Positions 34,510-53,473 of a DNA stretch of 64,000 nt are shown one piece after another. The notes below the pieces were generated by a model, which was not told the DNA's origin, searched no databases, and was given only the letters and a program-made list of their open reading frames with translations. The translations under genes were made by a program, and so were the position numbers. Each line of letters begins with the position of its first letter. The stretch's first letter is position 1. The stretch comes from Bacteroidaceae bacterium (GTDB lineage: Bacteria; Bacteroidota; Bacteroidia; Bacteroidales; Bacteroidaceae): assembly GCA_017651245.1 (NCBI GenBank), contig JAGCDQ010000022.1:93363-157362 (forward strand), read 5' to 3'.

Positions 34510-37500
34510 TTGAAGTCTTATATACCTATATTAACCTTTATGATGTGTTGCATAAAATGTGTAGCACAAACTTATATTGAGCCTGTTTTTGATAGGACGT
34601 ATGCTCCAAGTTTGCATATAAACAAGATTGAGGTGACAAAAGATACAACTTTTGTTTATTGTACATATAAAACAGAGGCCGGTTCATGGGCGAATATATC
34701 GAATGACACATATTTGTATAATCCTGAAACGCAGGAAAAGTTCCCCATATTGCAAAGTAATGACTTACCATTCAGCCCTCAAAAGAGAGAATTCTCTGAT
34801 GATGGCACTTATCAAGTATCATTCTCTTTTTCAAGCACTGGAGATGCTACCAGATTGGACTTCATAGAAGACCTTAATGAAGAAGCTTTTAATATCTATG
34901 GGATCAGTCTTACAAACTCCTTCAACACTTCTTATAATAAGGAAGAACTTAAATGTTTTTCTAATATGTCGTTGTCTTGCGATACGGCAGGCGACACCAT
35001 AAAGGCGATTCAATATAAGGAACAAGAAAAGGAGGCGACAGCATTCATCTATGGGGAAAAGTCGGAACAACTATTAATGGTTGTATATGATTTGTGTGGT
35101 ATGTATGAGAAGTATGGTTTTAATCAAAAGGCTAATGATCAGAAGAAAAAGATAACGGATTATGTTGAATCGCTGAATGACAATCTTGAAAAATGGCAGT
35201 TGTTATCAAGCTTGTCTAATGTATTATTTCAAAAAAATGATTATTCAGAAGCCTTGGAATATAGTACAAGAGCTGTAGACATTGGAGAGAAAATTTTTGG
35301 TATCGAACATCCCAAATATGCTGAATCATTAGATGTTTTATCCATAAACTATCATCATTTGGGCAACGATGAGGAAGCCATACGATTGGGAAAGGAAGCC
35401 TTGGAGATTAGGAAGAAGGTGGTTGGAACGGATCATCCAGATTATGCAATGTCATTAGGCAACCTCGCTGAGTATTATTCAGACCTCGGCTATTACGAGG
35501 AAGCTTTACGGTTTGGGGCTGAAGCGTTGGAAATCATAAAAAAGGTTTGTGGGGATGAGAAACCGGACTATGCAGCAGGACTCTTCCATCTTGCTATATA
35601 TTATTCTGAACTTGGTAACCATGAGGAAGCTATACGGATAGGGACTAGAGCGTTGGAGATTATAAAAAAGGTTTGTGGAAATGAGGATCTAGACTATGCC
35701 ACTTTGTTGGATATTCTTGCTACATTTTACTCCAAGAAGGGAAACTATGGGGAAGCCATACGGCTAGGAACGGAGGCATTGGAAATCACAAAGAGAATTC
35801 TTGGAACGGATCACCCCGACTATGCAACATCGTTAAACAACCTCGCTGGATATTATTCAGACCTCGGCGACTATGAGGGAGCCTTACGGTTCGGGACAGA
35901 AGCGTTGGAAATCATAAAAAGGGTTTGTGGAAATGAGGATCCGTACTATGTTACTGCATTAGAAACTCTTGCTATATATTACTCCGAGATTGGTAACTAT
36001 GAAGAAACGGTACAATTAATGAGTGAGGCGGTGAAAATTAAGAAGAATATTTTGGGTGAGGATCACCCCGACTATGCAACATCGTTAAACAACCTCGCCA
36101 GTCCTTATTCAGACCTGGGCAACTATGGTGAAGCCATGCGGCTAGGGACAGAGGCATTGGAAATCATCAAGAAGGTGTTTGGAACGGATCACCCCGACTA
36201 TGCCGCTTTATTAGGCAACCTCGCTACATATTATTCAGACCTAGGCAACTATGGTGAAGCTATACGGCTAGGGACGGAGGCATTGGAAATCAAAAAGAGA
36301 GTTCTTGGAACGGATCACCCCGACTATGCAAGATCGTTAAACAGCCTCGCTATATATTATTCAGATCTGGGCAACTATGGTGAAGCTATACGGCTAGGGA
36401 CGGAGGCATTGGAAATCAGAAAGAGGGTTCTTGGAACGGATCACCCCGACTATGCCGCTTCATTAGGCTGTATCGCATTATATTATTCAGATTTGGGGAA
36501 CTATGGTGAAGCCATACGGCTGGGGACGGAGGCATTGGAGATCGGAAAAAATGTGTATGGAACGGATCACCCCACCTATGCAACATTGTTAAATAACCTC
36601 GCTACATATTATTCAGACCTGAACAACTATGGTGAAGCTATACGGCTAGGGACGGTGGCATTGGAAATCATAAAGAGAGTTCTTGGAACGGAACACCCCG
36701 CCTATGCAACATCGTTAAACAATCTTGCTGGATATCATTCACATCAGGGGAACTATGGTGAAGCCATACGGCTAGGGACGGAGGCATTGGAAATCAGAAA
36801 GAGGGTTCTTGGAACGGATCACCCCGACTATGCCGCTTCATTAGGCAATATCGCATTATATTATTCAGATTTGGGGAACTATGGTGAAGCCATACGGCTG
36901 GAGACGGAGGCATTGGAAATCAGAAAGAGAGTTCTTGGAACAGATCATCCCGATTGTGCCATTTCATTAGGCAAACTCGCTGGGTATCATTCAGACCAGG
37001 GGAACTATGAGGATGCATATCTTTATTATAAAGAATGTATTGAGAATTCTCAAGTAAATATATTAATGAATTTTATTGGACAATCCTCCTATTTAAGGAA
37101 ATCATTTTGGGAGAAATATCAATACCGTTATACAGAAAGACTACCTTCTTATGTATACAAATACAAGAACGCAGAATCGATAACGGAGCTCTACGACAAG
37201 AATTGTCTCTTTGCTAAAGGATTATTGCTTAACTCCGATACCGAATTACGTAAACTTATTCTTGAAAGTGAAGATTCAATATTGATTGATAAACACAATA
37301 TGTTATCAACCAATATCAATATCTACAACAAACTGATTGAAAAACCAATCAATGAACGATTCATGAATGCAGACTCCTTAAACAATATTATTCAACAACA
37401 GGAGATGGAACTGGCCCGAGAATCGAAAGTTTATGGAGACTATACACATAATCTGACTAGTACATGGAAAGACGTTAGGAGTCATCTCAGCACGGATGAC

Positions 37501-38709
37501 ATTGCGATAGAATTCATAGACTTTCCAATCCTGGGAACAGATAGCATAATGTATGTCGCTCTAACCTTGAAGAAGGATTATGACAATCCCCACATGGTAA
37601 CGCTTTTTGAGAGGGAACAGTTAAAGGCTATACCAGAAAGAGACTATTATACCCAGACAAGTACATACGATTTAGTTTGGAAGCCCTTGGAAAAAGAACT
37701 GGAAAATATCAAGAATATATACTTCTCGCCTTCTGGAGAACTACATCGAATAGGTATTGAATATGTCCCTATCAATCAAACGGAAAATATGAGTGACAAG
37801 TATTCACTTTATCGTTTGTCATCAACTCGGCAATTGGCATTCATTCAAGATGAAACAAAGGGTGAACAAAACATTCTTTATGGAGGCATTAACTATGATG
37901 AGAGCGCCAATGTTGCACCAGATGTATCCATATCATCAGTAGATTCCGTCAGAGGAATTGATGCCATATATCGCTCCAATGTGGATTCATTATTATTGCG
38001 AAGTTCATACGAATATCTTGAGGGCACAAAGAAGGAAGTTGATCAAATTGTCGATCAAATGAAGCAGCACCAGCTTCATTACCAATATTATAGTGGGCCA
38101 GACGGATCAGAAGAGTCCTTCAAGAAGTTAGATGGTACTAAGCCGAGAGTGATGCATATAGCCACACATGGTTTCTATCTGACAGAAGAAGAAGCCCAAC
38201 AGTCAAATTTTGCCCGTCCACACATGGAACTCATGATGGGAGACTATCAAAGAGCCGGACACCCAATAGAAGATAAGCCAATGACACGTTCAGGTCTATT
38301 GTTTTCTGGGTGTAATCATGCCATTCATCATGAACAAATACCCGATGGAGTAGAAGATGGCATATTGACAGCGCAAGAAATCTCCACTTTGGATTTGCGT
38401 GGTCTTGAACTCGTCGTACTATCTGCCTGTCAAACGGCTTTGGGTGACATCGCTTCAGGAGAGGGTGTGTTCGGCTTACAAAGAGGATTCAAGAAAGCAG
38501 GGGCAAAGACCGTTGTCATGAGTCTTTGGAAAGTTGATGATGAAGCCACAAGGATTCTTATGGTTGAGTTTTATAATAACCTGATGTCAGGTAAAAGTAA
38601 ACAGCAAGCCCTTAAAGATGCACAAAAGCATCTTCGAGAGTATGATAATGGGAAATATAATAGCCCTCAGTATTGGGCCGCGTTTGTTATGTTGGATGGA
38701 TTAGATTAG
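34510..38709 (+). CDS. Exported TPR-CHAT caspase-like protein
   Basis: 1399 residues from a TTG at 34510, chosen because it starts a full signal peptide (KSYIPILTFMMCCIKCVAQ); the next in-frame ATG at 34540 would cut it short. Residues about 20-140 form a beta-rich domain. Residues 264-851 are 14 tetratricopeptide-like repeats of exactly 42 residues (HPDYATSLNNLAxYYSDLGN). The C-terminal 300 residues are a CHAT domain: VMHIATHGFYLTEEE with His1220 and LVVLSACQTALGD with Cys1307, so the protease dyad is intact. CHAT proteins are caspase relatives; TPR-CHAT is the protease of type III-E CRISPR systems, but no CRISPR is present here. A TACTTTTG element at 34488-34495 may drive it. Confidence 0.92.
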   Translation: MKSYIPILTFMMCCIKCVAQTYIEPVFDRTYAPSLHINKIEVTKDTTFVYCTYKTEAGSWANISNDTYLYNPETQEKFPILQSNDLPFSPQKREFSDDGTYQVSFSFSSTGDATRLDFIEDLNEEAFNIYGISLTNSFNTSYNKEELKCFSNMSLSCDTAGDTIKAIQYKEQEKEATAFIYGEKSEQLLMVVYDLCGMYEKYGFNQKANDQKKKITDYVESLNDNLEKWQLLSSLSNVLFQKNDYSEALEYSTRAVDIGEKIFGIEHPKYAESLDVLSINYHHLGNDEEAIRLGKEALEIRKKVVGTDHPDYAMSLGNLAEYYSDLGYYEEALRFGAEALEIIKKVCGDEKPDYAAGLFHLAIYYSELGNHEEAIRIGTRALEIIKKVCGNEDLDYATLLDILATFYSKKGNYGEAIRLGTEALEITKRILGTDHPDYATSLNNLAGYYSDLGDYEGALRFGTEALEIIKRVCGNEDPYYVTALETLAIYYSEIGNYEETVQLMSEAVKIKKNILGEDHPDYATSLNNLASPYSDLGNYGEAMRLGTEALEIIKKVFGTDHPDYAALLGNLATYYSDLGNYGEAIRLGTEALEIKKRVLGTDHPDYARSLNSLAIYYSDLGNYGEAIRLGTEALEIRKRVLGTDHPDYAASLGCIALYYSDLGNYGEAIRLGTEALEIGKNVYGTDHPTYATLLNNLATYYSDLNNYGEAIRLGTVALEIIKRVLGTEHPAYATSLNNLAGYHSHQGNYGEAIRLGTEALEIRKRVLGTDHPDYAASLGNIALYYSDLGNYGEAIRLETEALEIRKRVLGTDHPDCAISLGKLAGYHSDQGNYEDAYLYYKECIENSQVNILMNFIGQSSYLRKSFWEKYQYRYTERLPSYVYKYKNAESITELYDKNCLFAKGLLLNSDTELRKLILESEDSILIDKHNMLSTNINIYNKLIEKPINERFMNADSLNNIIQQQEMELARESKVYGDYTHNLTSTWKDVRSHLSTDDIAIEFIDFPILGTDSIMYVALTLKKDYDNPHMVTLFEREQLKAIPERDYYTQTSTYDLVWKPLEKELENIKNIYFSPSGELHRIGIEYVPINQTENMSDKYSLYRLSSTRQLAFIQDETKGEQNILYGGINYDESANVAPDVSISSVDSVRGIDAIYRSNVDSLLLRSSYEYLEGTKKEVDQIVDQMKQHQLHYQYYSGPDGSEESFKKLDGTKPRVMHIATHGFYLTEEEAQQSNFARPHMELMMGDYQRAGHPIEDKPMTRSGLLFSGCNHAIHHEQIPDGVEDGILTAQEISTLDLRGLELVVLSACQTALGDIASGEGVFGLQRGFKKAGAKTVVMSLWKVDDEATRILMVEFYNNLMSGKSKQQALKDAQKHLREYDNGKYNSPQYWAAFVMLDGLD
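35299..37062 (+). repeat. Array of 14 tandem 126-bp repeats encoding TPRs
   Basis: The repeat GTDHPDYA...KRVL begins at 35299 and its 14th copy at 36937, exactly 13 x 126 bp later, so no indel has occurred. Units 8, 9, 10 and 13 are almost identical in DNA, whereas units 1, 3, 4, 6 and 14 are more divergent: the middle has been homogenised or expanded recently. Confidence 0.9.
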
Positions 38710-39156
38710 AAGAAATCTTCTATAGCTTTGTGCCTACAGGAGATTTCTTTTACATTCCAAGTAACGGTATTGGGATGCTTGACAAATCAGAAATAAATGA
38801 AGCAATCCATCTTATTCTTTCTAACCAAAGTGGTATCCTGTTAAATTCTTCCTTGTTAGATTTAATGTAAGAAGAACTTTGGTGGACATACTTAAATCCC
38901 CATCCCCTACCGTAAAACTGAAATTGTTTGAAATCATAGAGTTTTTTTACCATATGATTATAGTTTTGTGATGGCAAATATATTGTCATCTGTTTTACAA
39001 AACTATTTTAACTGGTTTAAAACTCTCTAAAATAGATGAACGCGTTTCGTTCACGTTGCAAATGTAGATGTTTTATGCGAGATGTACAAACAAACCCGAT
39101 GAAAAATGCATTTGTAAAAGAAAAAAGTCTCTTATTATTCCCAATTGTCTCTCACC
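38710..39156. other. AT-rich intergenic stretch without a recognisable gene
   Basis: No convincing gene, RNA or terminator is visible. A 79-codon minus-strand frame at 38750-38989 has no recognisable domain or start context and was not called. Confidence 0.6.
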
Positions 39157-39306
39157 TCACTTGATTTTTCTTATTAGCATTGCCATAAAACCCGCTTGAA
39201 AATGCAAAAGAGTGTTTGACTTCACCTTGTTCTTAAAATCTATTTCTTCTTCATGGCTCATTTGCCCACGAAGATACTTTTCTATCTTGTTGGTATAATC
39301 CTTCAT
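39157..39306 (-). pseudogene. Remnant or short form of an anti-sigma-like protein N-terminus
   Basis: 49 codons: KDYTNKIEKYLRGQMSHEEE followed by DFKNKVKSN and a tail of about 20 residues, then a stop. It aligns with the start of the anti-sigma protein at 40243-41010 (DERIETFLRGNMSAEEEEAF), including the K/R-G-x-MS-x-EEE core. The membrane segment and periplasmic part are missing. No sigma gene accompanies it, so it is probably a leftover. Confidence 0.6.
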
Positions 39307-39440
39307 GTTGTAGTTTTTTCCTCTTTATACTTGCAACATGGGAAAAGTAATCGTATTCTTAACTTTTTTATCAAAAGTGTGAGAAAAAGATGTTTTGGAT
39401 GGTGATATTAAAATAAATATCAAAATAATTGCAAGAAAAT

Positions 39441-39471
39441 TTGGTTGATGATATTAAAATTCGTATCTTTG
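39441..39471 (+). promoter_or_regulatory. Promoter of the hicAB pair
   Basis: TTG at 39441-39443, 20-nt spacer, TATCTTTG at 39464-39471. Direct and inverted GATATTAAAAT sequences surround it (39400-39460), a likely antitoxin operator. Confidence 0.7.
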
Positions 39472-39505
39472 CACTCATTAAATCAATGAACACTTCATTA
39501 CAAAA

Positions 39506-39693: not shown

Positions 39694-39752
39694 CCTGTAA
39701 CTTTAGTAAATCAATAACAACCTAATAAAAATAATCATTATCCTTAGTATTT

Positions 39753-40157: not shown

Positions 40158-40242
40158 TCGTTCATTAATTCATGTTACTGAAATAGTAGAGGGTTTGCTT
40201 GTTTTGCAAACCCTCTATTTGTTTTCAGATTTTATAATTCTC

Positions 40243-41010
40243 TCAAATTTCTTTGAGCTTTTTGATCAGTTCTTCTGCTTTTGTGAAAATTGGTGTATCT
40301 GGATTATCTTCTTTGAGTTTCTCCAAAACGGATATGGCTTTATCTATCTGATCATCTTTGATATAGGCTATAGCTAGATTCCATGCAATATCATTAGCAT
40401 AGAGATGGTAGGTGAAGTCGGAATCGAGAGATGCATAAATGGGCTCCAATTCTTTGATGATGCTTGTGACGTTTCTCCTTTCAGGAATCTGGTTAAAAAG
40501 AGAATATAAATGAGTAACAGTCACAGAATCGACATCGCCACGAGATAGGGCTGACATATCGTATTGCGTACAATATGGCGCTATGGCTTCATCCAATGTT
40601 CTGTATCTTTGAGCTTTGAAGATGCTAAAGAATATGATACAGATAGCGGCTGCGGAACAAGCCCACCAGATGAAATGAGATTTTTGAGTGTTCTTCTCTT
40701 TTACACGATTCTCCACATTCTGTTCTTCTTCATCACTTGACAAGTCATTGAGTGTACGCTTGAAACGTCCCCACGCATATTTCTTTTCCATCGTCTCAAC
40801 ACTGGATATGATTGACTCTTGGTTCTTTGACTCAGATGTTTGCAACCCCTTGATGAGTGCAGTCATTTCCATCGCACGACTACGTAACTCAGGGTTCTCT
40901 TTGAGTTCTTTCTTGAAAGCCTCTTCTTCCTCTGCACTCATGTTACCACGAAGGAACGTTTCAATGCGCTCGTCTGTGTCGTTAATTAATATATCTTTAT
41001 CCTTGTCCAT
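40243..41010 (-). CDS. Membrane anti-sigma factor with TPR-like periplasmic end
   Basis: 255 residues overlapping the ECF sigma gene by 14 nt. The cytoplasmic part (1-110) begins with DERIETFLRGNMSAEEEEAF. A single membrane helix lies at 112-131 (HFIWWACSAAAICIIFFSIF). The periplasmic part (132-255) ends in helical repeats (WNLAIAYIKDDQIDKAISVL) resembling TPR. Topology and coupling mark it as the anti-sigma partner. The periplasmic TPR could be the docking site for the exported TPR-CHAT proteins; that last step is my inference. Confidence 0.8.
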   Translation of the reverse strand: MDKDKDILINDTDERIETFLRGNMSAEEEEAFKKELKENPELRSRAMEMTALIKGLQTSESKNQESIISSVETMEKKYAWGRFKRTLNDLSSDEEEQNVENRVKEKNTQKSHFIWWACSAAAICIIFFSIFKAQRYRTLDEAIAPYCTQYDMSALSRGDVDSVTVTHLYSLFNQIPERRNVTSIIKELEPIYASLDSDFTYHLYANDIAWNLAIAYIKDDQIDKAISVLEKLKEDNPDTPIFTKAEELIKKLKEI

Positions 41011-41587
41011 TGTTTCTATTCATAAGTTCGTTATACTTGTTGCGAAATTTTTGAATGCACTTATACTTCTGTGCCTTGACCGAATTAGCGTTCGCGAAAC
41101 CAAACATGTCGGCAATTGTGCTTGTCGTCAAATTATCCCAATAATAGCCTTGAAAGATATTCTTGCATGTATCTGGCATCACTTCAATGATGTTCTGTAC
41201 CATCCTTTCTGAAAGTGCAACTCTTTCAGCGTCTTCGTCTTCTGTGCACAACCGATATAGTTCATCTATCTTGTCAGAACGGAACTCATCCTTATTGGTA
41301 ATACTACTGTCATCAAACAATGGTACTACTTTCTGCTGTTTGCCGATAAACTTCAATGCTTGATTGATACATATACGAAGAAAATAGGTAGAGAGTGTAC
41401 TGGTGAGATTTGTGAGTTTACCCTCTTGGATATTTAAGAACAATGCCATAGATGACTCCTGATAGATGTCATCCAAGTCATCATCTAAGAGAGAGAATTT
41501 CTTTCTCAGATATGCCAGCACCTTGCCTTTTTCTTTTACAAGGAAACGATCAAGGTCTTGATCTTGTAGAGGTATCGTATCCGTCAT
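40997..41587 (-). CDS. ECF-type RNA polymerase sigma factor of the protease island
   Basis: 196 residues. Region 2: LLDDDLDDIYQESSMALFL; region 4: VMPDTCKNIFQGYYWDNLTT then STIADMFGFANANSVKAQKY, a helix-turn-helix. It is the middle gene of caspase - sigma - anti-sigma, with 1 nt between the caspase stop and its ATG. It is the natural candidate for recognising the TTRCC-14-GGTATA motif found upstream of four nearby genes. Confidence 0.92.
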   Translation of the reverse strand: MTDTIPLQDQDLDRFLVKEKGKVLAYLRKKFSLLDDDLDDIYQESSMALFLNIQEGKLTNLTSTLSTYFLRICINQALKFIGKQQKVVPLFDDSSITNKDEFRSDKIDELYRLCTEDEDAERVALSERMVQNIIEVMPDTCKNIFQGYYWDNLTTSTIADMFGFANANSVKAQKYKCIQKFRNKYNELMNRNNGQG

Positions 41588-41588: not shown

Positions 41589-42473
41589 TTAGTAGCTTGT
41601 TTCTGTTACCATATTCTGATTGTTAGGCCAAAGCCCCTCTTTTAGGATGGATTCCTTGACGTGTTTGAGGAACTCATCGGCATTTGTGGTAAGCTTATAC
41701 GATGATAATGCTTGTGCAATATGGTATGAAAGGGGACCATATTGTTTGTTGCCTATTTTGATTTCGCTGTTTATTTGGTCTGGCCTGCATGCTTCTAGGA
41801 ACATTACCTTAGCTTGCTTTGCTGATGCATTAATCGTTTCATTAATTATATAATGAGATTTTTTGATTGAGATCGGTTTAAACACTTTATTATTAAATGT
41901 GAAACCAACACTGGTGCCTCTTACAACATCATCATTCCCCCTTGATGATGTTCCTGCATGACAAGCATCTATGACAACATAAAGAAACCCTGTATTGCCA
42001 ATCATTTCCCTTAATCTTTTGACATATTGATTTAGTTGGTCATCAATGAGATGTTTCTTACCCTCATATGTTCCTTTTCTGTACTTCTTATATGCATCAA
42101 CAGGTACGATTGATTCATCCCAACCATCATCTTTTTCATCACCATTTAAATCTTCTACTGGTTGCCCGTGTGTAGAGAAATGTAGATAGACAATGTCTCC
42201 TTTCTTTGTTTTGTCAACAAAAAGGGAGAGCTGACGAGTGATATTGTCGAAAGTTGCTTGCTCATCTAGAAGCGTTATTAAAGTAAAACCTTGCTTTTTC
42301 AATATGGGGAAAAGGAGGTTAACATCTTCCACTCCGTTGATGTCGTTCCATTGGTAGCCAGTCAAGGCTGTATCATAATGAGATATGCCAACCAAAAAGG
42401 CCCTTTTCCGTTGTGCGTATACAACGGAAGAAAGTAGTATTGCTGCAAGTATGGCTATAAGTCTGAATCTCAT
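41589..42473 (-). CDS. Exported caspase-family (C14) peptidase
   Basis: 294 residues from the ATG at 42473, which starts a signal peptide (MRFRLIAILAAILLSSVVYA). The caspase fold is clear: KRAFLVGISHYD, VEDVNLLFPILKKQGF, IVYLHFSTHGQP with catalytic His102, and YVVIDACHAGTSSRG with catalytic Cys171. Metacaspase-type specificity residues were not assigned. It is the first gene of the operon with the sigma and anti-sigma genes; a minus-strand TATGTTTG at 42499-42492 may be its promoter. Being exported, it could cleave the periplasmic part of the anti-sigma protein. Confidence 0.9.
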   Translation of the reverse strand: MRFRLIAILAAILLSSVVYAQRKRAFLVGISHYDTALTGYQWNDINGVEDVNLLFPILKKQGFTLITLLDEQATFDNITRQLSLFVDKTKKGDIVYLHFSTHGQPVEDLNGDEKDDGWDESIVPVDAYKKYRKGTYEGKKHLIDDQLNQYVKRLREMIGNTGFLYVVIDACHAGTSSRGNDDVVRGTSVGFTFNNKVFKPISIKKSHYIINETINASAKQAKVMFLEACRPDQINSEIKIGNKQYGPLSYHIAQALSSYKLTTNADEFLKHVKESILKEGLWPNNQNMVTETSY

Positions 42474-42521
42474 TATTTCAACAATTTTGTGCAAACATAC
42501 AAATATTTTTTGATTTGGTGG

Positions 42522-42546
42522 TTACCTTTTCTTCTTTTTAGGTATA
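42522..42546 (+). promoter_or_regulatory. Candidate ECF promoter, copy C (TTACC-14-GGTATA)
   Basis: TTACC 42522-42526, 14 nt, GGTATA 42541-42546, 50 nt before the small secreted protein gene. It also lies in the divergent region of the caspase-sigma operon. Confidence 0.65.
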
Positions 42547-42595
42547 AAGAGGCAAAGAAAAAAACAATTTATTAACAAATTAAACTCAAGAGATC

Positions 42596-43084
42596 ATGAA
42601 AAAATTAGTTCTTTCAATCATCGCCCTCGTGGCAGTTGCAACGGCAAGTTTTGCACAGTATCCCAAGTTCGTTTCGTACACCCCATTGAATCTGGGAAGT
42701 ATTTCTTACAGTGCTCCGGTCACTTTGCCAAGCACTTCTATCAGCCTCCCGAGCACTCCCATCAGTATTCCGAGTTCTTCGCTGAGCATCCCAAGTACAG
42801 TGAACCTGAATACAACAAGTGTCAGTGGCTACACCAAGAGTAACGGTACATACGTTCAGAGCCATGTACGCACAATGCCCAACAATACGAATTGGGACAA
42901 CTATTCAACCAAAGGCAATGTGAATCCTTATACGGGAACGTCGGGTAGCCGAGCAAGAGACTATTCAACTGGTGCCAACAACTATGGCGTAGGACACATC
43001 ATCCACACGGGTCCTCGCGGTGGTCAGTACTACAACAACTCGAATGGCAACAAGACCTACGTGCCAAAACGTAATCTTTGGTAA
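42596..43084 (+). CDS. Small secreted Ser/Pro-rich protein with basic adaptor-like C-terminus, copy 1
   Basis: 162 residues: signal peptide (KKLVLSIIALVAVATASFAQ), a Ser/Pro/Ile-rich stretch of repeated SxxLPST-type units (about 35-65), a Tyr/Asn-rich segment YTKSNGTYVQSHVRTMPNNT, and a C-terminal HTGPRGGQYYNNSNGNKTYV that resembles the PBCV-specific basic adaptor motif. It differs from the second copy at 46460-46948 in only four residues. The shared promoter motif lies upstream. Probably an abundant surface or matrix protein; function unknown. Confidence 0.8.
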   Translation: MKKLVLSIIALVAVATASFAQYPKFVSYTPLNLGSISYSAPVTLPSTSISLPSTPISIPSSSLSIPSTVNLNTTSVSGYTKSNGTYVQSHVRTMPNNTNWDNYSTKGNVNPYTGTSGSRARDYSTGANNYGVGHIIHTGPRGGQYYNNSNGNKTYVPKRNLW

Positions 43085-46100: not shown

Positions 46101-46202
46101 CCATACTGCCCATTCTCGGTCTTTGGAAACTCCAAGACTAATAGTTTGTGTAAAAGCACATAATGGCAAAAGTAAAAATAAGAATGAAAATACTTTTCTC
46201 AT
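43179..46202 (-). CDS. Exported CHAT-domain caspase-like protein
   Basis: 1007 residues from the ATG at 46202 (signal peptide RKVFSFLFLLLPLCAFTQ). An N-terminal beta domain of about 130 residues is followed by a long helical region with weak TPR-like repeats (about 150-600). The CHAT domain fills the last 330 residues: LHIATHGFYYTSEE with His836 and LVVLSACQTGLGD with Cys916, both intact. The domain plan matches the larger CHAT protein at 34510, but without the regular 42-residue array. It is enclosed by two direct copies of the small secreted gene. Confidence 0.9.
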   Translation of the reverse strand: MRKVFSFLFLLLPLCAFTQTISLGVSKDREWAVWTYETIEFRDDCTILKGFFVPSGNGCHVISNMDEKLIANGEEYRIIYTTLPIIRHPRTTYQGGIKVYFEEHFEPIFTTGDVIEFPSNDISFPVPFNHRKATKPYEDLYPAYEEHIDTLISHEKYDIAAYLLNQYVKKLRFSCPPKIKEKISKRILSKYRVLDFFLNASSNNGYIWSQFENTYYWLDFKEDDEILKKLSEISTLQNTIELNWNEDRLSDVIKMCESLMPMIQTFGKYNKKYEHSLCLYRKVLMMDRQTQLIPKLDKEIIDVCRHIYKTNSGQYIEHLMDIASDVPITSQKDNNELICVDLWKEIRDKTQLNFPESWRYAMASLKIADYNRHSGNIDDAMTQYLIIDSLCKVRRNDWIAEVWFNNDSLSPEASEKTVNLMQESLAKAIANYYYQKGDIESAIKHDENNPYYHAAHGDTATLLSWCKKSYEKSIDGLKSIIKDPVIIFPGTYYETEFDLFYTPVLTTHIPYFALQTKSVDLCEMAYNGVLITKEFRLNAGNRLRQYIKTTQDAVAIEYITRIDKEMRTYQSLMKTDVLKFVEKHQEILQLQRSLIAHLNSIGALEPYFPNWIDIRNTLKDDELAIEFIEFPLWNQNQSIYAALTLRKDSEHPKITKLFEEKDLKSVPDTLYYQCKEMTDLVWKPIQSELHGIKNIYFSPTAALHKIGIEYLPGMGNYNIYRLSSTRELVLGNETPTEKNAVLYGGLDYDAKWDSTSITKSHALIDEMIKKRANVRSMGLRGSKEPLPHTKVEVDTIAEYLKNAQWVCLLDTAELGTEESFKSLSGKKINTLHIATHGFYYTSEEADNIKYDFTPADNNIATDEDKALTRSGLIMSGGNHILERDSIPNNVEDGILTAKEIAHVDLRDLDLVVLSACQTGLGDLSQGEGVFGLQRGFKKAGANSILMSLWKVDDEATQILMTRFYKNFLSGQNKQQSLLSAQKYLKEYNKKYDNPKYWAAFILLDGVK

Positions 46203-46374
46203 ATTGTTTCTTTGTAGTCTGTATATTAGATGCTGAAGAAGCACCGCATTGTTATTAATCTTCTGAAGCAAATTATCGTGGTCTTTTATAAATCTTCGAT
46301 GCTTGCGACAGACAAAAATAGGTCATTTCCGCGATGCGTCAAAATTTTTTCATGAAAAACTTTCATTTTGCAGT

Positions 46375-46399
46375 TTACCTTTTTGCCCCTTATGGTATA
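46375..46399 (+). promoter_or_regulatory. Candidate ECF promoter, copy A (TTACC-14-GGTATA)
   Basis: TTACC 46375-46379, 14 nt, GGTATA 46394-46399, then TATAAGTGTCAAG, shared in part with copy B (TATATGAATGTCAAG). The start codon lies 60 nt downstream. Confidence 0.7.
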
Positions 46400-46459
46400 T
46401 ATAAGTGTCAAGAGACAAAAACCAATAACATATTATCAACAATCAAAATTCACAAAACA

Positions 46460-46948
46460 ATGAAAAAATTAGTTCTTACAATCATCGCCCTCGTGGCAGT
46501 TGCAACAACAAGTTTTGCACAGTATCCCAAGTTCGTTTCGTACACCCCATTGAATCTGAGAAGTATTTCTTACAGTGCTCCAGTCACTTTGCCAAGCACT
46601 TCTATCAGCCTCCCGAGCACTCCCATCAGTATTCCGAGTTCTTCGCTGAGCATCCCAAGTACAGTGAACCTGAATACAACAAGTGTTAGTGGCTACACCA
46701 AGAGTAACGGTACATACGTTCAGAGCCATGTACGCACAATGCCCAACAATACGAATTGGGACAACTATTCGACTAAAGGCAATGTGAATCCTTATACGGG
46801 AACGTCTGGTAGCCGAGCAAGAGACTACTCAAGCGGTGCTAACAACTATGGCGTAGGGCACATCATCCACACGGGTCCTCGTGGTGGTCAGTACTACAAC
46901 AATTCTAACGGTAACAAGACCTACGTGCCCAAACGTAATCTTTGGTAA
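46460..46948 (+). CDS. Small secreted Ser/Pro-rich protein with basic adaptor-like C-terminus, copy 2
   Basis: 162 residues from the ATG at 46460; longer readings enter the promoter. It differs from copy 1 by Ser7Thr, Ala18Thr, a Gly-to-Arg change in the NLGSISY segment and a Thr-to-Ser change in DYSTGANN. DNA identity is similarly high through the coding region and falls off outside it, so duplication was recent or the copies are kept alike by conversion. Confidence 0.8.
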   Translation: MKKLVLTIIALVAVATTSFAQYPKFVSYTPLNLRSISYSAPVTLPSTSISLPSTPISIPSSSLSIPSTVNLNTTSVSGYTKSNGTYVQSHVRTMPNNTNWDNYSTKGNVNPYTGTSGSRARDYSSGANNYGVGHIIHTGPRGGQYYNNSNGNKTYVPKRNLW

Positions 46949-46961
46949 CACTAATCCCAAT

Positions 46962-47079: not shown

Positions 47080-47116
47080 TACCCTTAGAGTTGTTTCACA
47101 AAAAAACGATAAAATT

Positions 47117-50100
47117 ATGACTACATTAAGTTCTGAGCAACTTACGCAGTTGCAAGCAAAAAAGCAAGAGAAAGAGCGTCGTCAAGACAACAAGCAACAT
47201 GCAACCAAGATTGATCAAGGGTTGCGTAGTGTAGATTCGCAAACAGGACCGGAAAGAGCCATTTGGGAACTTTGCCAGAATGCACGAGATTTGGCTGAAG
47301 ACTGTCACATTCGCATTGAATTGTCCGAGAACAGTTTCAAATTCTCTCACAATGGCAAGCCTTTTGACATGGACTCCCTCAGCTCCTTGATCAAGCAAGT
47401 GAGTGGTCAAAGCAAAGAAACGGATGAGACGGTTGGTCAATACGGCACAGGTTTCCTGACGACCCACTATTATGGTATGAAGTTCTCGTTGTACGGTTCT
47501 TACCAGATAGGAGAGAATATGTACATTGACCTGGACGGTTTTGAAATAGACCGTTCTCATGAGTCTATTGATGAACTGATTGTGAAAATCACCCATCAGT
47601 TAGGAAAAACGGATGAGTTATTGAACAAGCCTTATTCATCGGAATGCAAGGAATGGACGACGTTTGTATATGATCTCCCTGCACATCACAGAGATGGTGC
47701 TGTTGCAGGATTGGAGGCAGCCATCAAACAGATGCCATACGTGATGCTGTTCAACGACAGAATTACGAGATGCCAGATTGATGATTATATTAATAATGTG
47801 CATGTGAATTTTGCGAAATCGGCAAGACCTGATGAAAATGGGATGAAGGTGATGCGTATAGACATTGTACGCAATGGCGTGAATATGCCCATGAACATTT
47901 ATTATCTGGAGTCTGAGAGTGGAGAAGACCGGATTGTGCTTCCGCTGGAAAGTCCGACAAGGGCTTGTAGATTGGATGGCATCTCCAAATTGTTCATGCA
48001 CTTCCCATTGTTGGGAACAGAAAACTTCGGCTTTGAGTACATCTTCCATTCTTGTCATTTCAAACCAGAAGAAAAACGTGATGGATTGTATTTACCAGAT
48101 GGAAATGAAAACAACCAGAAGGAGACGGAGCAGAACATCGAGGTACTGAATAGGATGAAGGATATGCTATTCGATTGGCTGTCTGAGCATATTTCGGAGA
48201 TTGAGAACACTAAAGCTATGGCTCGCCTTTGTTTCAATCCCGACAGGTATGAAAATGAAGAGATGGCAGATTTCATTGAAAGTGTGAGAAAGGAATGGGC
48301 TGACTTCTATGCTGATAAACCGATGGTCCCAACAGCAAAAGGGAGAATGGCAGTGATGAATTACCACTTTTATGTGTTAGATCATGAAATCATTCGATGT
48401 CTTGAGAAGGGGGAGAACATTCAATACTTGTCCACTATCTGTAAATATGCCCAGAAGGGTAACGAATACATTCTTCCATGTACAGAAGAATGTGTGGAGT
48501 GGTCGAAGATTGTTGACGAGTGGGGAGAATTGGAACTGAATCCATTTATAGGGATGAAAGACATCGTGGAAAATGTGGATGAACTGTCTGATGACTTACA
48601 CGACTTCCTGTTGTTTATAAAAGCTTGCAAACAAGATGGCCTGTTCACTTCGTATGCTTTGATACCAAACAGAGAAGGGATGCTTTGTAAAGCAAACGAA
48701 TTGAGAGATGCAGGAAGCATCACACCCGATTTGTACAAAATTGTCCGTCCTTTGATAGAGGAAGAATCCGACAGGTTTGTTGATGAGGATTTTGTGGACA
48801 TCTGCGAGCTTGATGTATATGACAGAAGCGATTTGCGCGATGACGTAAAGACTGCCATAGACAATCTCCGGGATGATATTTCAAATTATGATGGCATTAA
48901 CTCTTGTATGGATGAGGAAACAGAACAAATTGTGATTGACTATTGTTCAGCGTTCCCTATTCAGAATGGAAATAGTATTAGAAACAGGTTGATGCCTATT
49001 ATTTGCCAATATCAAGGCGTGATTTATGAAGAAACCTTCATTCCACGTCTGAATGATGATGAGCCAGATCTCTATGAGAATGCCTTCCGCTTCTTGGTTG
49101 AATACATGATGTATAAACTTTCTTGTGAAGATTCAGAATGGGTAGAAGACAATTTGAATTTGCTTGCAGATTTTGTGAGAGAGGTGACCAGTGTGGAGAC
49201 ATTCAAAAAGCAAATTGTTCAATATGGAATCTTCCCCAATCAGTATTATGTGTTGCATTTGGCTGAAGAACTCCGCAAGAATATGCTGGATGAGGATAAG
49301 TGTGAGGATTTACTGAGGATATATGAACAGGAGTTCGATGAAGACCTTAGAGAAGGGCTCGTACATCAGGATTTTGAGAGTTGTTGGGATTTTGAGGGGT
49401 TGAAAGCGGAGGATATCTGCAAGGAGATTGAAGACAAACTCGCAGAGGATGATTATACCAGCCAGACGACCATAGAAATCATTGAGAAGATTGACAAGGA
49501 TGAAGAGGGTTGGGGCAAATTGTTCAAAAACATCCGTGACAATAAGGAGAACATCTTCTTTAAGAATGCTGTCTGTGGCACGAAGAAGAACGATGTGTAT
49601 CGATTGATGAAGAGCAATGATGAAACATTGGCGATTCTTGCTGACTTGGCAGAGCAGGATGATATGGAAGACATTCTGAATCATGCTCAGCGAATAATCG
49701 AAATGGAAAAGCAGAAGAAGGCGGACTTTGAACTGATGCACAGCATCGGGAAGCACATTGAAGATATGATTCGTGAGAAGATTGCTTCTGAATTGGGAGA
49801 GAAATTGCAGATTAAGACTTCCAATGGTGATAAAGGCAACTTGTGGGTTGATGACATGCAGTATGGACAAGACATCATTGTTAGCTACAATGGACAGGAT
49901 GTGTATTACATTGAGGTGAAGTCAAAACGCAACTTCAACACTCCTGCATACATGAGCAAGAACCAGATTCGGAAAGCCTGCCTGCATGCAGACAAGTATG
50001 CCCTCTGTTGTGTGGATCTGAGTAATGCACAATGTGGTGACATCAACAATCCGCAAATTGAAGAGGTGTTGCCTCATACGAGATTTAAGAATGACATTGG

Positions 50101-50269
50101 CGAGCTCCTGCTGCCATTGGTGACTCCAGTACTGAAAGCTGATGAGGATATTGAAGACAAGGAAATCAAACTGGACGGTGATTACACGGCAAGTATTCCG
50201 AAGCGTGTATTCACAACCGGTCTGACGATGGATGAGATGATTGACGAGATTGTTGCAAAGATCCAATGA
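47117..50269 (+). CDS. Large Hsp90-type (sacsin-like) ATPase with C-terminal DUF3883-like domain
   Basis: 1050 residues, cytoplasmic. The N-terminal 250 residues are a GHKL ATPase: RAIWELCQNARDLAEDCHIR (Asn box), FSHNGKPFDMDSL and VGQYGTGFLTTHYYG (glycine-rich lid). The middle is long, acidic and unassigned. The last 170 residues resemble DUF3883 (YIEVKSKRNF; SKNQIRKACLHADKYALCCV), whose ExK-type core suggests a nuclease-related fold. Proteins with sacsin-like ATPase and DUF3883 ends are found in bacterial defence islands, so phage defence is plausible, but neither domain proves it. It has its own terminator. Confidence 0.85.
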   Translation: MTTLSSEQLTQLQAKKQEKERRQDNKQHATKIDQGLRSVDSQTGPERAIWELCQNARDLAEDCHIRIELSENSFKFSHNGKPFDMDSLSSLIKQVSGQSKETDETVGQYGTGFLTTHYYGMKFSLYGSYQIGENMYIDLDGFEIDRSHESIDELIVKITHQLGKTDELLNKPYSSECKEWTTFVYDLPAHHRDGAVAGLEAAIKQMPYVMLFNDRITRCQIDDYINNVHVNFAKSARPDENGMKVMRIDIVRNGVNMPMNIYYLESESGEDRIVLPLESPTRACRLDGISKLFMHFPLLGTENFGFEYIFHSCHFKPEEKRDGLYLPDGNENNQKETEQNIEVLNRMKDMLFDWLSEHISEIENTKAMARLCFNPDRYENEEMADFIESVRKEWADFYADKPMVPTAKGRMAVMNYHFYVLDHEIIRCLEKGENIQYLSTICKYAQKGNEYILPCTEECVEWSKIVDEWGELELNPFIGMKDIVENVDELSDDLHDFLLFIKACKQDGLFTSYALIPNREGMLCKANELRDAGSITPDLYKIVRPLIEEESDRFVDEDFVDICELDVYDRSDLRDDVKTAIDNLRDDISNYDGINSCMDEETEQIVIDYCSAFPIQNGNSIRNRLMPIICQYQGVIYEETFIPRLNDDEPDLYENAFRFLVEYMMYKLSCEDSEWVEDNLNLLADFVREVTSVETFKKQIVQYGIFPNQYYVLHLAEELRKNMLDEDKCEDLLRIYEQEFDEDLREGLVHQDFESCWDFEGLKAEDICKEIEDKLAEDDYTSQTTIEIIEKIDKDEEGWGKLFKNIRDNKENIFFKNAVCGTKKNDVYRLMKSNDETLAILADLAEQDDMEDILNHAQRIIEMEKQKKADFELMHSIGKHIEDMIREKIASELGEKLQIKTSNGDKGNLWVDDMQYGQDIIVSYNGQDVYYIEVKSKRNFNTPAYMSKNQIRKACLHADKYALCCVDLSNAQCGDINNPQIEEVLPHTRFKNDIGELLLPLVTPVLKADEDIEDKEIKLDGDYTASIPKRVFTTGLTMDEMIDEIVAKIQ

Positions 50270-50279
50270 TGAGTGACTG

Positions 50280-50322
50280 AAAAGCCACCTTGAACGGACT
50301 AGTATAGGGTGGCTTTTCTTTC
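50280..50322 (+). terminator. Intrinsic terminator
   Basis: AAAGCCACC pairs with GGTGGCTTT, followed by TCTTTCTT. Confidence 0.85.
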
Positions 50323-50370
50323 TTGCCAGAAAAAATGATAGAGCTCGCTGATTTTTAACACATTTTCACT

Positions 50371-50395
50371 TTGCCTTTTCCTCTCTTATGGTATA
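50371..50395 (+). promoter_or_regulatory. Candidate ECF promoter, copy B (TTGCC-14-GGTATA)
   Basis: TTGCC 50371-50375, 14 nt, GGTATA 50390-50395. It would drive the operon from the 49-residue membrane protein to the TPR-retropepsin gene. About 25 nt downstream of the motif are shared with copy A (TGTCAAG, ACATATTAT). Confidence 0.7.
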
Positions 50396-50451
50396 TATGA
50401 ATGTCAAGCGACACAAAACAACATATTATTAACAATTAAAAATTAAAAGTT

Positions 50452-50601
50452 ATGGGATTCATTATTTGTTGTATCATTTACATCGTTATCTGTCAAACGA
50501 TTGTCAAATTGTTTAAGATTGAACAGTTTAAGTGGCAGGCTCTCGTGTATGCCATTGTTGGGAACGTAGGTGGTTTCATCATTAAAGCCATTCTTTCATA
50601 A
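50452..50601 (+). CDS. 49-residue small membrane protein
   Basis: The frame starts at the ATG at 50452, 57 nt behind the promoter motif, and encodes two hydrophobic helices: GFIICCIIYIVICQTIVKLF and AIVGNVGGFIIKAIL separated by KIEQFKWQ. No family is recognised. Its place as first gene of the operon argues it is real. Confidence 0.6.
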   Translation: MGFIICCIIYIVICQTIVKLFKIEQFKWQALVYAIVGNVGGFIIKAILS

Positions 50602-50669
50602 TAGTAATTAACAATGGTGTTCATAAGTTCAATCGAGTTTATGAATATCATACAAAAAAAATCACAATT

Positions 50670-51017
50670 ATGCTTTACAATTCATTGAATAAGGATAGCC
50701 TCCAGAGAATCGGTAATATCGTTAATGGCTTTCTCAACTATCCAGCGTATGCTGCATACCAAATCGAATCATACACCTATGATTGGCGAGCAGGAGTACA
50801 TGCTCTTGAAATTTCTCGTGATGGTAGAGTTGTGAATTTGTTCTTGTTCTATCCGGATCCTTATGGGAAGATTGGATCGTTTGCCATTTATGGTGCCAAT
50901 TTGCAAGGTCATTACAATGCCATGCGTTCTTCCATGATGGCTTTCGGTATGCACATTACTTCTATTGAGATGGAGTCTGGCGCTTCGGACTATGTGGATG
51001 TATATATAGAGTATTAA
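50670..51017 (+). CDS. Small protein of unknown function
   Basis: 115 residues, cytoplasmic, with alternating beta-like and helical stretches (GVHALEISRDGRVVNLFLFY). I do not recognise a family. Second gene of the small operon, 68 nt behind the membrane-protein gene. Confidence 0.6.
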   Translation: MLYNSLNKDSLQRIGNIVNGFLNYPAYAAYQIESYTYDWRAGVHALEISRDGRVVNLFLFYPDPYGKIGSFAIYGANLQGHYNAMRSSMMAFGMHITSIEMESGASDYVDVYIEY

Positions 51018-51036
51018 TCATAAAAACAAAAAAACT

Positions 51037-51366
51037 ATGTCAACAATAACACATGTATTTAATAGCCATAAGCGTATTGAAAATGGCAGAGTGGTATCAC
51101 ATGATTTCGTTCCAAGAATGGCGAATCTACAGTATGATTTCACTGGAAGGAGAGGGATAATTAGTGTTATCCCGACCTTGTCTCCCAAACGGGCAACGTT
51201 ATATAAGGATACAGGAAATGTCCTCTACTACAGAGGGGATGATCCTGACTTTCGTTTCGAGTTGGAAACTTGGCCAGACAATAATACAATCAAAAGACTT
51301 TCTGTTATTCGAGAGGACAGGAACCTTGAGATTCAGTATTTGAGTGACCATCAGGATGCAATGTGA
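51037..51366 (+). CDS. Small protein of unknown function
   Basis: 109 residues, no signal peptide, beta-rich in appearance (RRGIISVIPTLSPKRATLYK). It lies 19 nt after its neighbour and 46 nt before the TPR-retropepsin gene, so the four genes are probably one transcript. No family recognised. Confidence 0.6.
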   Translation: MSTITHVFNSHKRIENGRVVSHDFVPRMANLQYDFTGRRGIISVIPTLSPKRATLYKDTGNVLYYRGDDPDFRFELETWPDNNTIKRLSVIREDRNLEIQYLSDHQDAM

Positions 51367-51412
51367 TCATCCAGATGATGAAAATAAAAAAACAATCTAA
51401 TTTAATAATATT

Positions 51413-53473
51413 ATGAAAATTAACAACTTGCTAATTCTATTATTGAGTTTTTGCCTGTCAACTTCCATCGTTGCAGAGAAGGCTAAGGTGTATAAAAACA
51501 GTTATAACTACAAGAGAGCGATGGAACTCTTAAATAGTGATGGCGACAAAAACGAGGCATTGGATTTCTTGCAGAAAGAGGTTGCAGAGCACCCCAAGAA
51601 TGGGTATGCTTATTATTGGATTGGAAGTCTATATGAGGACAATGACCAACTTGTGGATGCCCTTGAACCCACCAATAAGGCGATTGAGCTGTTGAAGAAA
51701 GATAAGGAGTGGGTCACATTTGCTTATCGTCGTCGGGCAAGAATAAACCAGATGCTTGGTAATGAGAAAGAGGCCTTGAATGATTGGAATATGGCGTTGA
51801 AGAGCAATCCGAAAGATGTAAATACTTATTATGACAGAGGTGAGTATTATTATTGGCAAGGTATGTATGCTGAGGCTGATGCGGATTTTGACAGGATTTG
51901 CAAGATTGAGCCAACAAATCCACTTGGTTACGTCGGTAAGGGGCGTAATGCGATTGCGCAGGAGAATTATAAGGATGCTGTGGAACTCTTAACGTATTGT
52001 TTGAAGTTGGATTCCTCTTACTCTCAAGGATACGCATTTCGTGCTGAGGCTTTTATGAAGCAAGGGATGATGAATGAATGTATAGATGACATCATCAAGG
52101 CGCTTAATATTGATGGAAACGAAAAGGCGTTTGTGTTGATGCTGGAAATTGAAGAACCTGTTATCAATACGCTTGTCTCCAAGTTGAAGATTCAGCAAAA
52201 TCAGCAACCGAATGAGATGGAATGGTCATATTATATTGGTGTAGTGTATGAGGAACAAGGAAGATATCAAAAGGCTATAGACACCTATAATATAGCTCTG
52301 AAGATCGAAAAGAGTGATGTGCTGTACGGAAGAATCGCCAATTGCTATAATGAGTTGGGGTATTTTGAGCTTGCTTTGGAAAATATCATTCGGGCTATGG
52401 AACTTGACCCTGAGGATGTTGACTATGTGGCAAAGAAAGCGGACTTGTTATACGACATGGGAAGAGGTGGGGAAGCGATTGCAACTTTTGACGATTTTAT
52501 TAAACTGACTCCAGAGTATTATGCTGGCTATTATCGAAGAGGTTTCATGAAGGACAATCTTAGTGATGTGGATGGCGCAATAGAAGATTATTCAATGACG
52601 ATTGCCTTAAAGCCAGATTTCGCCTATGCTTATTTGGGTAGGGCTGATATGTATGTGCTGAAAGGTGATAGGATTTCTGCTATCAATGACTACAAGATGG
52701 TAGTGCGACTTGATACCGTACCATCTGATAATTCGTGTGCTCAGTATGCTTATTTAGCATTGGGCGAAATAGAAAAAGCTAAATCATTTCAGAAAGCCAT
52801 TATAGAGCAATACGATGTGCCAGGAAATTATTATGATGCAGCATGTCTATATGCCAGAATGGGAGAGAAGGAGGCTTCGCTGGAGTTCTTGAAGATAGCT
52901 TTAAAGAAAGGATTTCGCCGGTTTATTCATATCAAAATGGATGATGACTTGATCGGTGTCCGTGAAATGGATAGCTATATAGAACTGATGCAAGAATATG
53001 AAGGGATGTGTGAAGAAGAATTGAAAGAAAAAAGAGAAGAGATAGGTGCATCTGTAAAGAAGGAAGAGGAAATGAGCGAGACTCCTTTCAGAATAGAAAG
53101 TGGCAACTGTTATGTGAAGTGTAAGATCAATGACTTGCCCATGCAGTTTGTGTTTGATACAGGGTCTTCAGATGTGTCTCTCTCAATGGTGGAGGCTTCT
53201 TTCATGTTGAAGAATGGATATCTGTCTGAGAAGGATGTAATTGGAAGCGTAAAATTCTCGGATGCAGTTGGCAATGTGAGCGAGGGAACTGTTATAAATC
53301 TTCGTAAGGTGAAGTTTGGCGATGTGGAGTTGGATAATGTAAAAGCAAGTGTTGTGAAGAACCAAAAAGCTCCGCTCTTGTTGGGGCAGACAGTTTTGTC
53401 TCGTATTGGCAAGATCGAGATAGACAATGAGAACAAAGTGCTTAGGTTAAGGTATTTGAAGAAGGTTGACTGA
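51413..53473 (+). CDS. Exported TPR protein with C-terminal retropepsin-like aspartic protease domain
   Basis: 686 residues. Signal peptide (LLILLLSFCLSTSIVAEKA), then about twelve tetratricopeptide repeats (residues 30-530; e.g. YYIGVVYEEQGRYQKAIDTY), then a charged helix, then a clan AA aspartic protease domain from about residue 560. The catalytic motif is MQFVFDTGSSDVSLS with Asp582, and the second conserved stretch is PLLLGQTVLSRIGKIEID. Retropepsin-like enzymes work as dimers. It is the third kind of exported protease in this island, again joined to TPRs. Confidence 0.9.
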   Translation: MKINNLLILLLSFCLSTSIVAEKAKVYKNSYNYKRAMELLNSDGDKNEALDFLQKEVAEHPKNGYAYYWIGSLYEDNDQLVDALEPTNKAIELLKKDKEWVTFAYRRRARINQMLGNEKEALNDWNMALKSNPKDVNTYYDRGEYYYWQGMYAEADADFDRICKIEPTNPLGYVGKGRNAIAQENYKDAVELLTYCLKLDSSYSQGYAFRAEAFMKQGMMNECIDDIIKALNIDGNEKAFVLMLEIEEPVINTLVSKLKIQQNQQPNEMEWSYYIGVVYEEQGRYQKAIDTYNIALKIEKSDVLYGRIANCYNELGYFELALENIIRAMELDPEDVDYVAKKADLLYDMGRGGEAIATFDDFIKLTPEYYAGYYRRGFMKDNLSDVDGAIEDYSMTIALKPDFAYAYLGRADMYVLKGDRISAINDYKMVVRLDTVPSDNSCAQYAYLALGEIEKAKSFQKAIIEQYDVPGNYYDAACLYARMGEKEASLEFLKIALKKGFRRFIHIKMDDDLIGVREMDSYIELMQEYEGMCEEELKEKREEIGASVKKEEEMSETPFRIESGNCYVKCKINDLPMQFVFDTGSSDVSLSMVEASFMLKNGYLSEKDVIGSVKFSDAVGNVSEGTVINLRKVKFGDVELDNVKASVVKNQKAPLLLGQTVLSRIGKIEIDNENKVLRLRYLKKVD

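Follow-up and report, generated by a model that had tools for sequence, protein, structure and literature searches.

Exported clan CD proteases encoded beside an ECF sigma factor and a membrane anti-sigma with a conserved linker arginine in a mobile island of a Bacteroidaceae bacterium

In Escherichia coli, RpoE is controlled by RseA, DegS and RseP. The anti-sigma RseA has a single transmembrane (TM) segment and is cut on its periplasmic side, some 30 residues away from the membrane. The RseA/DegS/RseP pathway is mentioned in work on the type III-E CASP system, which comprises the TPR-CHAT protein Csx29, Csx30 and CASP-sigma (PMC10028731). Here, we analysed a 64 000-nucleotide stretch of DNA (the window) from a Bacteroidaceae bacterium (GenBank assembly GCA_017651245.1, contig JAGCDQ010000022.1, positions 93 363 to 157 362, forward strand), part of a 2.83-Mb assembly that is 86% complete. 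The window carries an inserted mobile element (the island) in which a caspase and two CHAT proteases, all apparently exported, are encoded around an extracytoplasmic function (ECF) sigma factor and a membrane anti-sigma. On the basis of sequence conservation we lean towards a membrane-spanning switch, in which an exported clan CD protease would cut the anti-sigma after an arginine of its periplasmic linker and free the sigma factor.

Comparisons with described systems were made from excerpts of the cited papers. The sigma gene adjoins the gene of a one-TM anti-sigma, as in RseA-like systems. With RseA/DegS/RseP the locus further shares a juxtamembrane periplasmic cut (predicted here) and an M50 site-2 protease, the gene of which is present in the genome. 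The site-1 protease there is a serine protease, whereas a clan CD cysteine protease with Arg at P1, encoded beside the sigma factor, is proposed here. The type III-E CASP system is alike in having TPR-CHAT beside an ECF sigma factor and an inhibitor, in carrying motif sites inside the locus and in the relief of inhibition by cleavage, the last being a proposal for the island (PMC10028731). It differs in being a complex triggered by CRISPR RNA (PMC10028731), whereas no CRISPR-like array was seen at 30000–56000 among repeats of at least 30 nt, in agreement with the initial annotation. The island, by contrast, encodes apparently exported proteases, with an additional caspase among them, and an inhibitor that sits in the membrane. 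The echo of type III-E drawn in that annotation holds as a functional parallel only. Cas7-11, Csx30 and Csx31 were absent from the general family matches of the scanned proteins, no search having been aimed at them.

Four further systems are related in part. In the metacaspase/sigma-70 operons of Myxococcus and others, a sigma factor gene likewise shares its operon with the gene of a caspase homologue, and the excerpt describes neither anti-sigma nor CHAT (PMC3501461). The ECF54 group has CHAT and other peptidases around an ECF sigma factor, with proteolysis proposed (PMC8999054); that group is marked by having no anti-sigma factor, whereas the island has an anti-sigma gene. EACC2-caspase systems share the neighbourhood of caspase, ECF sigma and TPR genes; EACC/TRADD-N domains occur there, and no membrane anti-sigma is described in the excerpt (PMC8195603). 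The orthocaspase MaOC1 is a bacterial caspase homologue paired with a substrate from a neighbouring gene; it cuts an antitoxin, its partner being a toxin–antitoxin system, and the excerpt gives no determined cut sites (PMC7935541). No description of an exported caspase or CHAT protein with a membrane anti-sigma was found in the open-licence PMC literature, as far as the excerpts go.

The genes and residues on which the argument rests are the following.

40997..41587, minus strand: ECF sigma factor (TIGR02937, 52.3 bits against a curated cut-off of 42.9)
40243..41010, minus strand: membrane anti-sigma with a cytoplasmic N-terminal domain, a TM segment at residues 113–131, a periplasmic linker containing R157-G158 and a weak TPR-like end
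40540..40542, minus strand: codon of anti-sigma R157, predicted site-1 cleavage residue (P1), from conservation in anti-sigmas
41589..42473 (ATG at 42473), minus strand: putatively exported caspase of metacaspase type (PF00656, E 3e-18); residues numbered from the upstream TTG at 42494 (ORF 41589–42494)
41919..41921, minus strand: codon of caspase R192, candidate auto-processing site, from conservation
34510..38709, plus strand: putatively exported TPR-CHAT protease 1 (CHAT PF12770, E 4e-59; 13 TPR stretches; H1220, C1307)
43179..46202 (ATG at 46202), minus strand: putatively exported CHAT protease 2 (CHAT, E 9e-52; H859, C939); residues numbered from the upstream TTG at 46271 (ORF 43179–46271)
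51413..53473, plus strand: putatively exported TPR-retropepsin (PF13975, E 7e-14; DTGS at 582)

The conserved core is an operon of exported caspase, ECF sigma factor and one-TM anti-sigma, in that order, usually with an exported CHAT gene nearby. When 151 genomes of the family were searched for the caspase, it turned up at 25 places in 24 genomes (the window counted among them), and CHAT lay within 10 kb of 19 of these places. CHAT was present in 18 of the 24 caspase genomes against 21 of the 127 others (Fisher p 3e-8, counted per genome with kinship ignored). Among the 24 family neighbourhoods other than the window (L026–L049), a sigma homologue was found in 23 and stood directly downstream of the caspase in 21. 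A scan of named genomes yielded 495 caspase relatives, many of them from the rumen or gut; the loci of the 80 best served for counting (L050–L129; these overlap in part with L026–L049, and the two sets of counts are not independent). The sigma gene was directly downstream of the caspase in 68/80 and the anti-sigma next in 67/80, and CHAT, fragments included, was found in 69/80. Caspase, sigma factor, anti-sigma and CHAT were thus found to travel together in the neighbourhood check that the initial annotation had called for.

Across the order, the anti-sigma profile matched 129 of 295 genomes at E 1e-3, other anti-sigma types included. CHAT occurred in 103 of these 129 and in 56 of the 166 genomes with no match (Fisher p 1e-15, ignoring kinship and genome size). 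Of 89 anti-sigma places that were typed (from matches listed to E ~1e-6), at least 33 had CHAT within 10 kb; rows from the own genome, second fragments and some further rows, such as G190:C60 with its adjoining CHAT, were excluded from this count. The gene set is spread over many Bacteroidales genomes. Natural fusions were also found: sigma factor with anti-sigma in L165, and the anti-sigma N-terminus and TM segment with a Trypsin_2 domain in L185 (7173–8243) and L186 (3993–4686), both from genomes with no CHAT match. These fusions suggest that sigma factor, anti-sigma and periplasmic protease work together in this order.

The sigma/anti-sigma pair of the initial annotation was upheld on the sigma side, which exceeds the curated cut-off, and less firmly on the other, where family matches were weak (E 0.003–0.004). 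The TPR-like periplasmic end described there is likewise faint (TPR_19, E 3e-4, under the cut-off), and a TPR-to-TPR contact of this end with the proteases found no support. Hydropathy gave one TM segment. For the analysis of the linker, 89 anti-sigma sequences were reduced to 70 by dropping those with at least 85% identity. The column of R157 holds Arg in 69/70 and Lys in 1/70, followed by Gly in 65/70. It is the only Arg/Lys column filled in all 70 sequences (the next best is filled in 67) and surpasses Met1 (68/70); in the first 18 anti-sigmas it was the single invariant column. R157 lies in the periplasmic linker, outside the sigma-binding end; its distance past the TM window has a median of 27 residues (interquartile range 26–29, range 19–41). 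An aromatic YYxxY-like segment recurs before it.

The arginine was also followed outside this alignment, by eye on printed linkers. In six of six divergent anti-sigmas from caspase genomes with no CHAT match, Arg followed by Ser or Ala stands at the same place, and Arg is kept in all 35 further anti-sigmas from across the order (22 + 13). Pfam was run on a few of the 35, and a TPR match was found in the anti-sigmas of L163, L165, L180 and L192. Nine anti-sigmas of other types (FecR-type, trypsin-fused or short; L182–L190) were left out of the 35; among the nine, L185 still has K-G and L186 still has R-S in the linker. The proposal that the arginine exists because of the caspase was rejected, since loci with no caspase keep it.

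Cleavage after Arg (or Lys) is a property of several clan CD families, namely the metacaspases, paracaspases, gingipains, clostripains and separases; metacaspases accept Arg/Lys, separases Arg (PMC4357240). Because these clan CD enzymes have this specificity, we infer that R157 is a protease site, the predicted cut site of the anti-sigma.

Small ORFs resembling the anti-sigma N-terminus, with no TM segment and 61–85 residues long, were noted 3′ of the anti-sigma gene in L052, L054, L059, L060, L067 and L123; each could be a membrane-free sigma binder or a remnant. The window has a similar short ORF.

39151..39315, minus strand: anti-sigma N-terminal-like fragment with no TM segment, possibly a remnant

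The caspase and CHAT proteins look exported. N-termini resembling signal peptides were called by eye and with a lenient hydropathy rule that accepts later Met starts, and in the related loci they were found in 78/80 caspases and in 64/72 CHAT proteins longer than 600 residues, against 5/73 in the sigma control. Catalytic motifs are intact in all four proteases of the island (HIATHG and LSAC in both CHAT proteins, HFSTHG and DACH in the caspase, DTGS in the retropepsin). The initial annotation had reported signal peptides and intact catalytic residues in four proteases, including an exported caspase and a TPR-retropepsin; the proteases and their catalytic residues were confirmed, and their N-termini look like signal peptides. 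Of its two TPR-CHAT proteins, both are CHAT, the second having no TPR match in Pfam. We take CHAT to belong with caspase and separase in clan CD. Caspase C14 and separase C50 are both placed in that clan (PMC4357240), so the three unrelated protease folds of the annotation reduce to two.

The caspase matched 11 PDB sequences, namely ten metacaspases and GSU0716. H109, C178 and D176 are conserved in 59/59 relatives, and D57, present in 25/25, corresponds in the alignment to the Asp in the Metacaspase-1 NDA motif; the His-Cys dyad with the acids of a basic P1 pocket assigns the protein to the metacaspase type (C14B). D176, two residues before the catalytic Cys, presumably takes the place of Asp211 of TbMCA2. 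The pocket acids of TbMCA2 are Asp95 and Asp211 (PMC4357240). The island caspase also contains V191-R192-G193, of which R192-G193 is kept in 59/59, 14 residues past the catalytic Cys. A caspase processing site lies about 14 residues after β4 (PMC4357240), and the island caspase may be primed by cutting its own VRG site.

The retropepsin looks like cargo. Its protease domain has one relative, in G113, a genome of the same genus, and none at E 1e-3 in L026–L129 and L160–L179; since the stretches searched mostly extend no more than about 10 kb from the anchor gene, and the window gene lies 9–11 kb from the caspase, absence from the relatives is not established. On the same search it was set aside as a part of the switch, in which the initial annotation had given it a core place. 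A different protease family was noted near other caspase loci: L028, L030 and L037 share one protein cluster near caspase/CHAT, the L028 member of which is an exported MORN-trypsin protein.

A promoter-like motif was obtained by footprinting of the region upstream of the caspase in a set of window-like loci. It is a bipartite element, [GT]TT[AG]CC[TA]-N13-15-GTATA, that points away from the caspase; in the same region a TAnnTTTG-type box, which we take to be of the housekeeping type, points towards it. The sites in the window and the genes behind sites 2, 3 and 4 are as follows.

33793..33818, plus strand: ECF-like promoter motif site 1
42521..42546, plus strand: ECF-like promoter motif site 2, divergent from the caspase operon
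46374..46399, plus strand: ECF-like promoter motif site 3, divergent from CHAT 2
50370..50395, plus strand: ECF-like promoter motif site 4
42596..43084, plus strand: small exported protein, copy 1
46460..46948, plus strand: small exported protein, copy 2 (94% identity to copy 1 over 300 nt)
50452..50601, plus strand: 49-residue hydrophobic protein, the first gene past site 4, conserved in G113
50670..51017, plus strand: protein of unknown function in the gene run behind site 4
51037..51366, plus strand: protein of unknown function in the same gene run

All four sites of the window fall within the island, 59–86 nt ahead of gene starts, where 0.07 would be expected. The 80 loci gave 55 hits against 4.3 expected. 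In the 37 of these loci that the author picked as window-like, the motif stood divergently at the 5′ end of 21/37 caspase and 11/30 CHAT genes, compared with 5/226 other ORFs. The nearest ORF within 600 nt downstream of the 55 hits was in no case a CHAT gene and in one case a caspase (L107). By eye, the genes behind the motif encode small exported repeat proteins, the small exported proteins of the window and small membrane proteins; in both the window and G113 the motif also precedes the gene run ending in TPR-retropepsin. We propose a local regulon, with the motif as the putative recognition element of this sigma factor. A genome-wide regulon was rejected for lack of support on a search with the strict form of the motif alone, which did not exceed its backward control (three hits against three in the own genome).

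The small exported protein has a PHROG match to one family of unknown function (E 3e-14). Its two genes lie on either side of CHAT 2 within direct repeats (42560–42859 and 46424–46723, 94%), perhaps a recent duplication. Exported proteins with short repeats rich in Gly, Ser, Thr, Tyr and Asn were noted behind the motif in L051 (17474), L052 (17037), L054 (18711), L064 (16183) and others, and by eye look like surface or matrix proteins. An identical motif-like site occurs in two genera (G113:C32:40210 and G129:C64:81362) on contigs other than those of the caspase loci.

In the proposed switch, the ECF sigma factor would be held at the inner membrane by the anti-sigma in the resting state. An envelope signal would activate the exported clan CD protease or proteases (caspase and/or CHAT), with the large N-terminal domain of CHAT as the putative sensor. 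The active protease would cut the anti-sigma between R157 and G158, about 27 residues outside the membrane, and the general M50 site-2 protease would process the shortened stub. The freed sigma factor would then transcribe the local regulon, i.e. the small exported proteins and the gene run ending in TPR-retropepsin, and the caspase might be primed by cleaving itself at VRG. The arginine stays both in genomes that have the caspase alone and in genomes that have CHAT alone; on one reading of this distribution, either clan CD enzyme may serve. Release of the sigma factor under protease control, as the initial annotation had suggested, gains from the conserved juxtamembrane arginine, the cut itself being a prediction; support for periplasmic release has grown since that suggestion, and the model now has a precise predicted site.

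Substrates of bacterial caspase and CHAT proteases are, to our knowledge and from the papers cited, known in few cases, and we know of no site-1 protease for this widespread anti-sigma family. The present analysis names the anti-sigma as a candidate substrate and predicts a single scissile residue in it, an auto-processing site in the caspase and a promoter motif. With substrate and residue named, the question narrows to one point mutation and one blot. If the switch operates as proposed, a site-1 protease would be named for a widespread anti-sigma family of this order.

Several findings weigh against this switch. Eight of the 80 caspase loci have no sigma gene (one of them is on a 4-kb contig), and the co-occurrence statistics take no account of kinship. 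M50 proteases are also present in 14/14 control genomes. A 53-row alignment (A3) is invariant at L188, L212 and A213, with R157 only in the class of at least 90%. Eight loci, some of them on short contigs, retain the Arg although neither caspase nor CHAT was hit in the fetched stretch (L161, L165, L166, L167, L169, L171, L172 and L177), and so do two genomes that lack a CHAT match (L180 and L181); retained with neither protease nearby, it could be structural or serve another protease. The motif was drawn partly from the window sites, two of which (sites 3 and 4) fall within a 77% repeat; its strict form fits only two of the four, and the genome-wide count of hits over 11 genomes was 16 for this form and 20 for the backward control. 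As for the self-cutting step, we take Metacaspase-1, the nearest solved relative of the island caspase, to be of type I. In type I metacaspases no cleavage site is conserved and processing is not required (PMC4357240), which speaks against this step.

The alternative that fares best, a serious contender though we would not bet on it, is that CHAT is the ancestral and main site-1 protease, which the caspase joined later, either to activate CHAT or to stand in for it in lineages that have none. The order-wide association of CHAT with the anti-sigma profile (103/129 against 56/166) speaks for it, as do CHAT genes beside an anti-sigma with no caspase in the fetched stretch (e.g. L163, L168, L173, L178, L192 and L194). 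The 20 genomes with the best anti-sigma matches all have CHAT, and any C14 is found in 12 of them. CHAT follows the anti-sigma on the same strand in some family loci (e.g. L103, L108 and L116), and separase is itself an Arg-P1 enzyme (PMC4357240). However, six family genomes have the caspase, the sigma factor and an Arg-bearing anti-sigma with no CHAT match, and CHAT 1 of the window is convergent with the operon and apart from it. A relay of both enzymes, in which the CHAT sensor would activate the caspase at VRG, the caspase would cut the anti-sigma at SRG and the sigma factor would switch on the exported proteins and, as a second wave, the aspartic protease, is a tentative version to which we give rather little credence.

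Still less probable in our estimation is a structural or docking role of the arginine, the anti-sigma responding through its periplasmic end (for example to an exported ligand) with the proteases as effectors or targets. Its retention where no clan CD gene was found nearby, and in the two genomes with no CHAT match, is compatible with such a role, as is the aromatic segment preceding it; but it is the best-conserved residue of an otherwise variable linker (19 to 41 residues from the TM window), and its sole substitution in 70 sequences is Lys, which metacaspases also accept. TPR-CHAT1, which stands behind motif site 1 after the gene of a 192-residue protein, may belong to the response, whereas the single caspase and lack of CHAT genes immediately behind the 55 motif hits argue against the proteases being its products. 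Finally, an anti-phage or abortive-infection island with caspase and CHAT as death effectors, the sigma factor setting only their level, would fit the TmtA-family gene, the VapE gene and the 221-bp flanking repeats of a mobile element, but is quite improbable given TmtA relatives in only 1/80 caspase loci and proteases that look exported.

The proposed switch is carried by an element with the following boundaries and further genes.

30718..30938, plus strand: left 221-bp direct repeat, at the 3′ end of the gene at 29760–30938 (Aconitase_C and DUF4234 domains)
53846..54066, plus strand: right 221-bp direct repeat, 90% identity to the left repeat
31917..33128, minus strand: VapE-like helicase/primase of mobile elements (PF05272, E 5e-33; PHROG DNA helicase, 4e-41)
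33852..34430, plus strand: 192-residue protein of unknown function, upstream of TPR-CHAT1
47117..50269, plus strand: TmtA-family candidate defence gene (PADLOC, E 6e-244; N-terminal sacsin-type ATPase, C-terminal NOV_C)

The GC content drops from about 0.50 to 0.38–0.44 between 32 and 56 kb of the window. For the insertion site, 11 relatives sharing the adjoining kinase gene were compared (L217–L227). In seven of them (G014, G081, G063, G443, G451, G141 and G460) the left flank is joined directly to the right flank with the 221-bp repeat in a single copy; the junction was not seen in the other four (G469, G445, G453 and G113). The empty junction was confirmed on longer stretches of G014, G081 and G063, and the kinase protein of G014 is identical to that of the window genome. 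Because the flanks meet with one repeat copy in relatives, the island is an inserted mobile element of about 22.9 kb at the 3′ end of the Aconitase_C/DUF4234 gene. Flanking repeats and an empty site in relatives identify it as a mobile integrated element, whose ends lie beyond the span 34510–53473 given in the initial annotation. No integrase was recognized among the family and PHROG matches of the island proteins, the nearest being a weak Arm-DNA-bind match in 33852–34430 (E 0.028).

In G113, the 192-residue gene, caspase, sigma factor, anti-sigma, CHAT, small exported protein and TmtA are clustered, and the genes behind motif site 4 through TPR-retropepsin are found past TmtA; its kinase matches are on contigs other than that of the cargo. 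The TmtA-family gene, absent from the gene list of the initial annotation, sits between CHAT 2 with the small exported protein and the retropepsin genes, in the same order as in G113 (L029/L095). The name TmtA did not occur in the literature among the matches listed. Relatives of the 192-residue protein were found in 4/80 loci, starting about 650–700 nt ahead of the caspase match. The VapE-like gene is bracketed by 39-nt inverted repeats (31871–31909 and 33314–33352, 87% complementary), which may mark a smaller unit inside the island.

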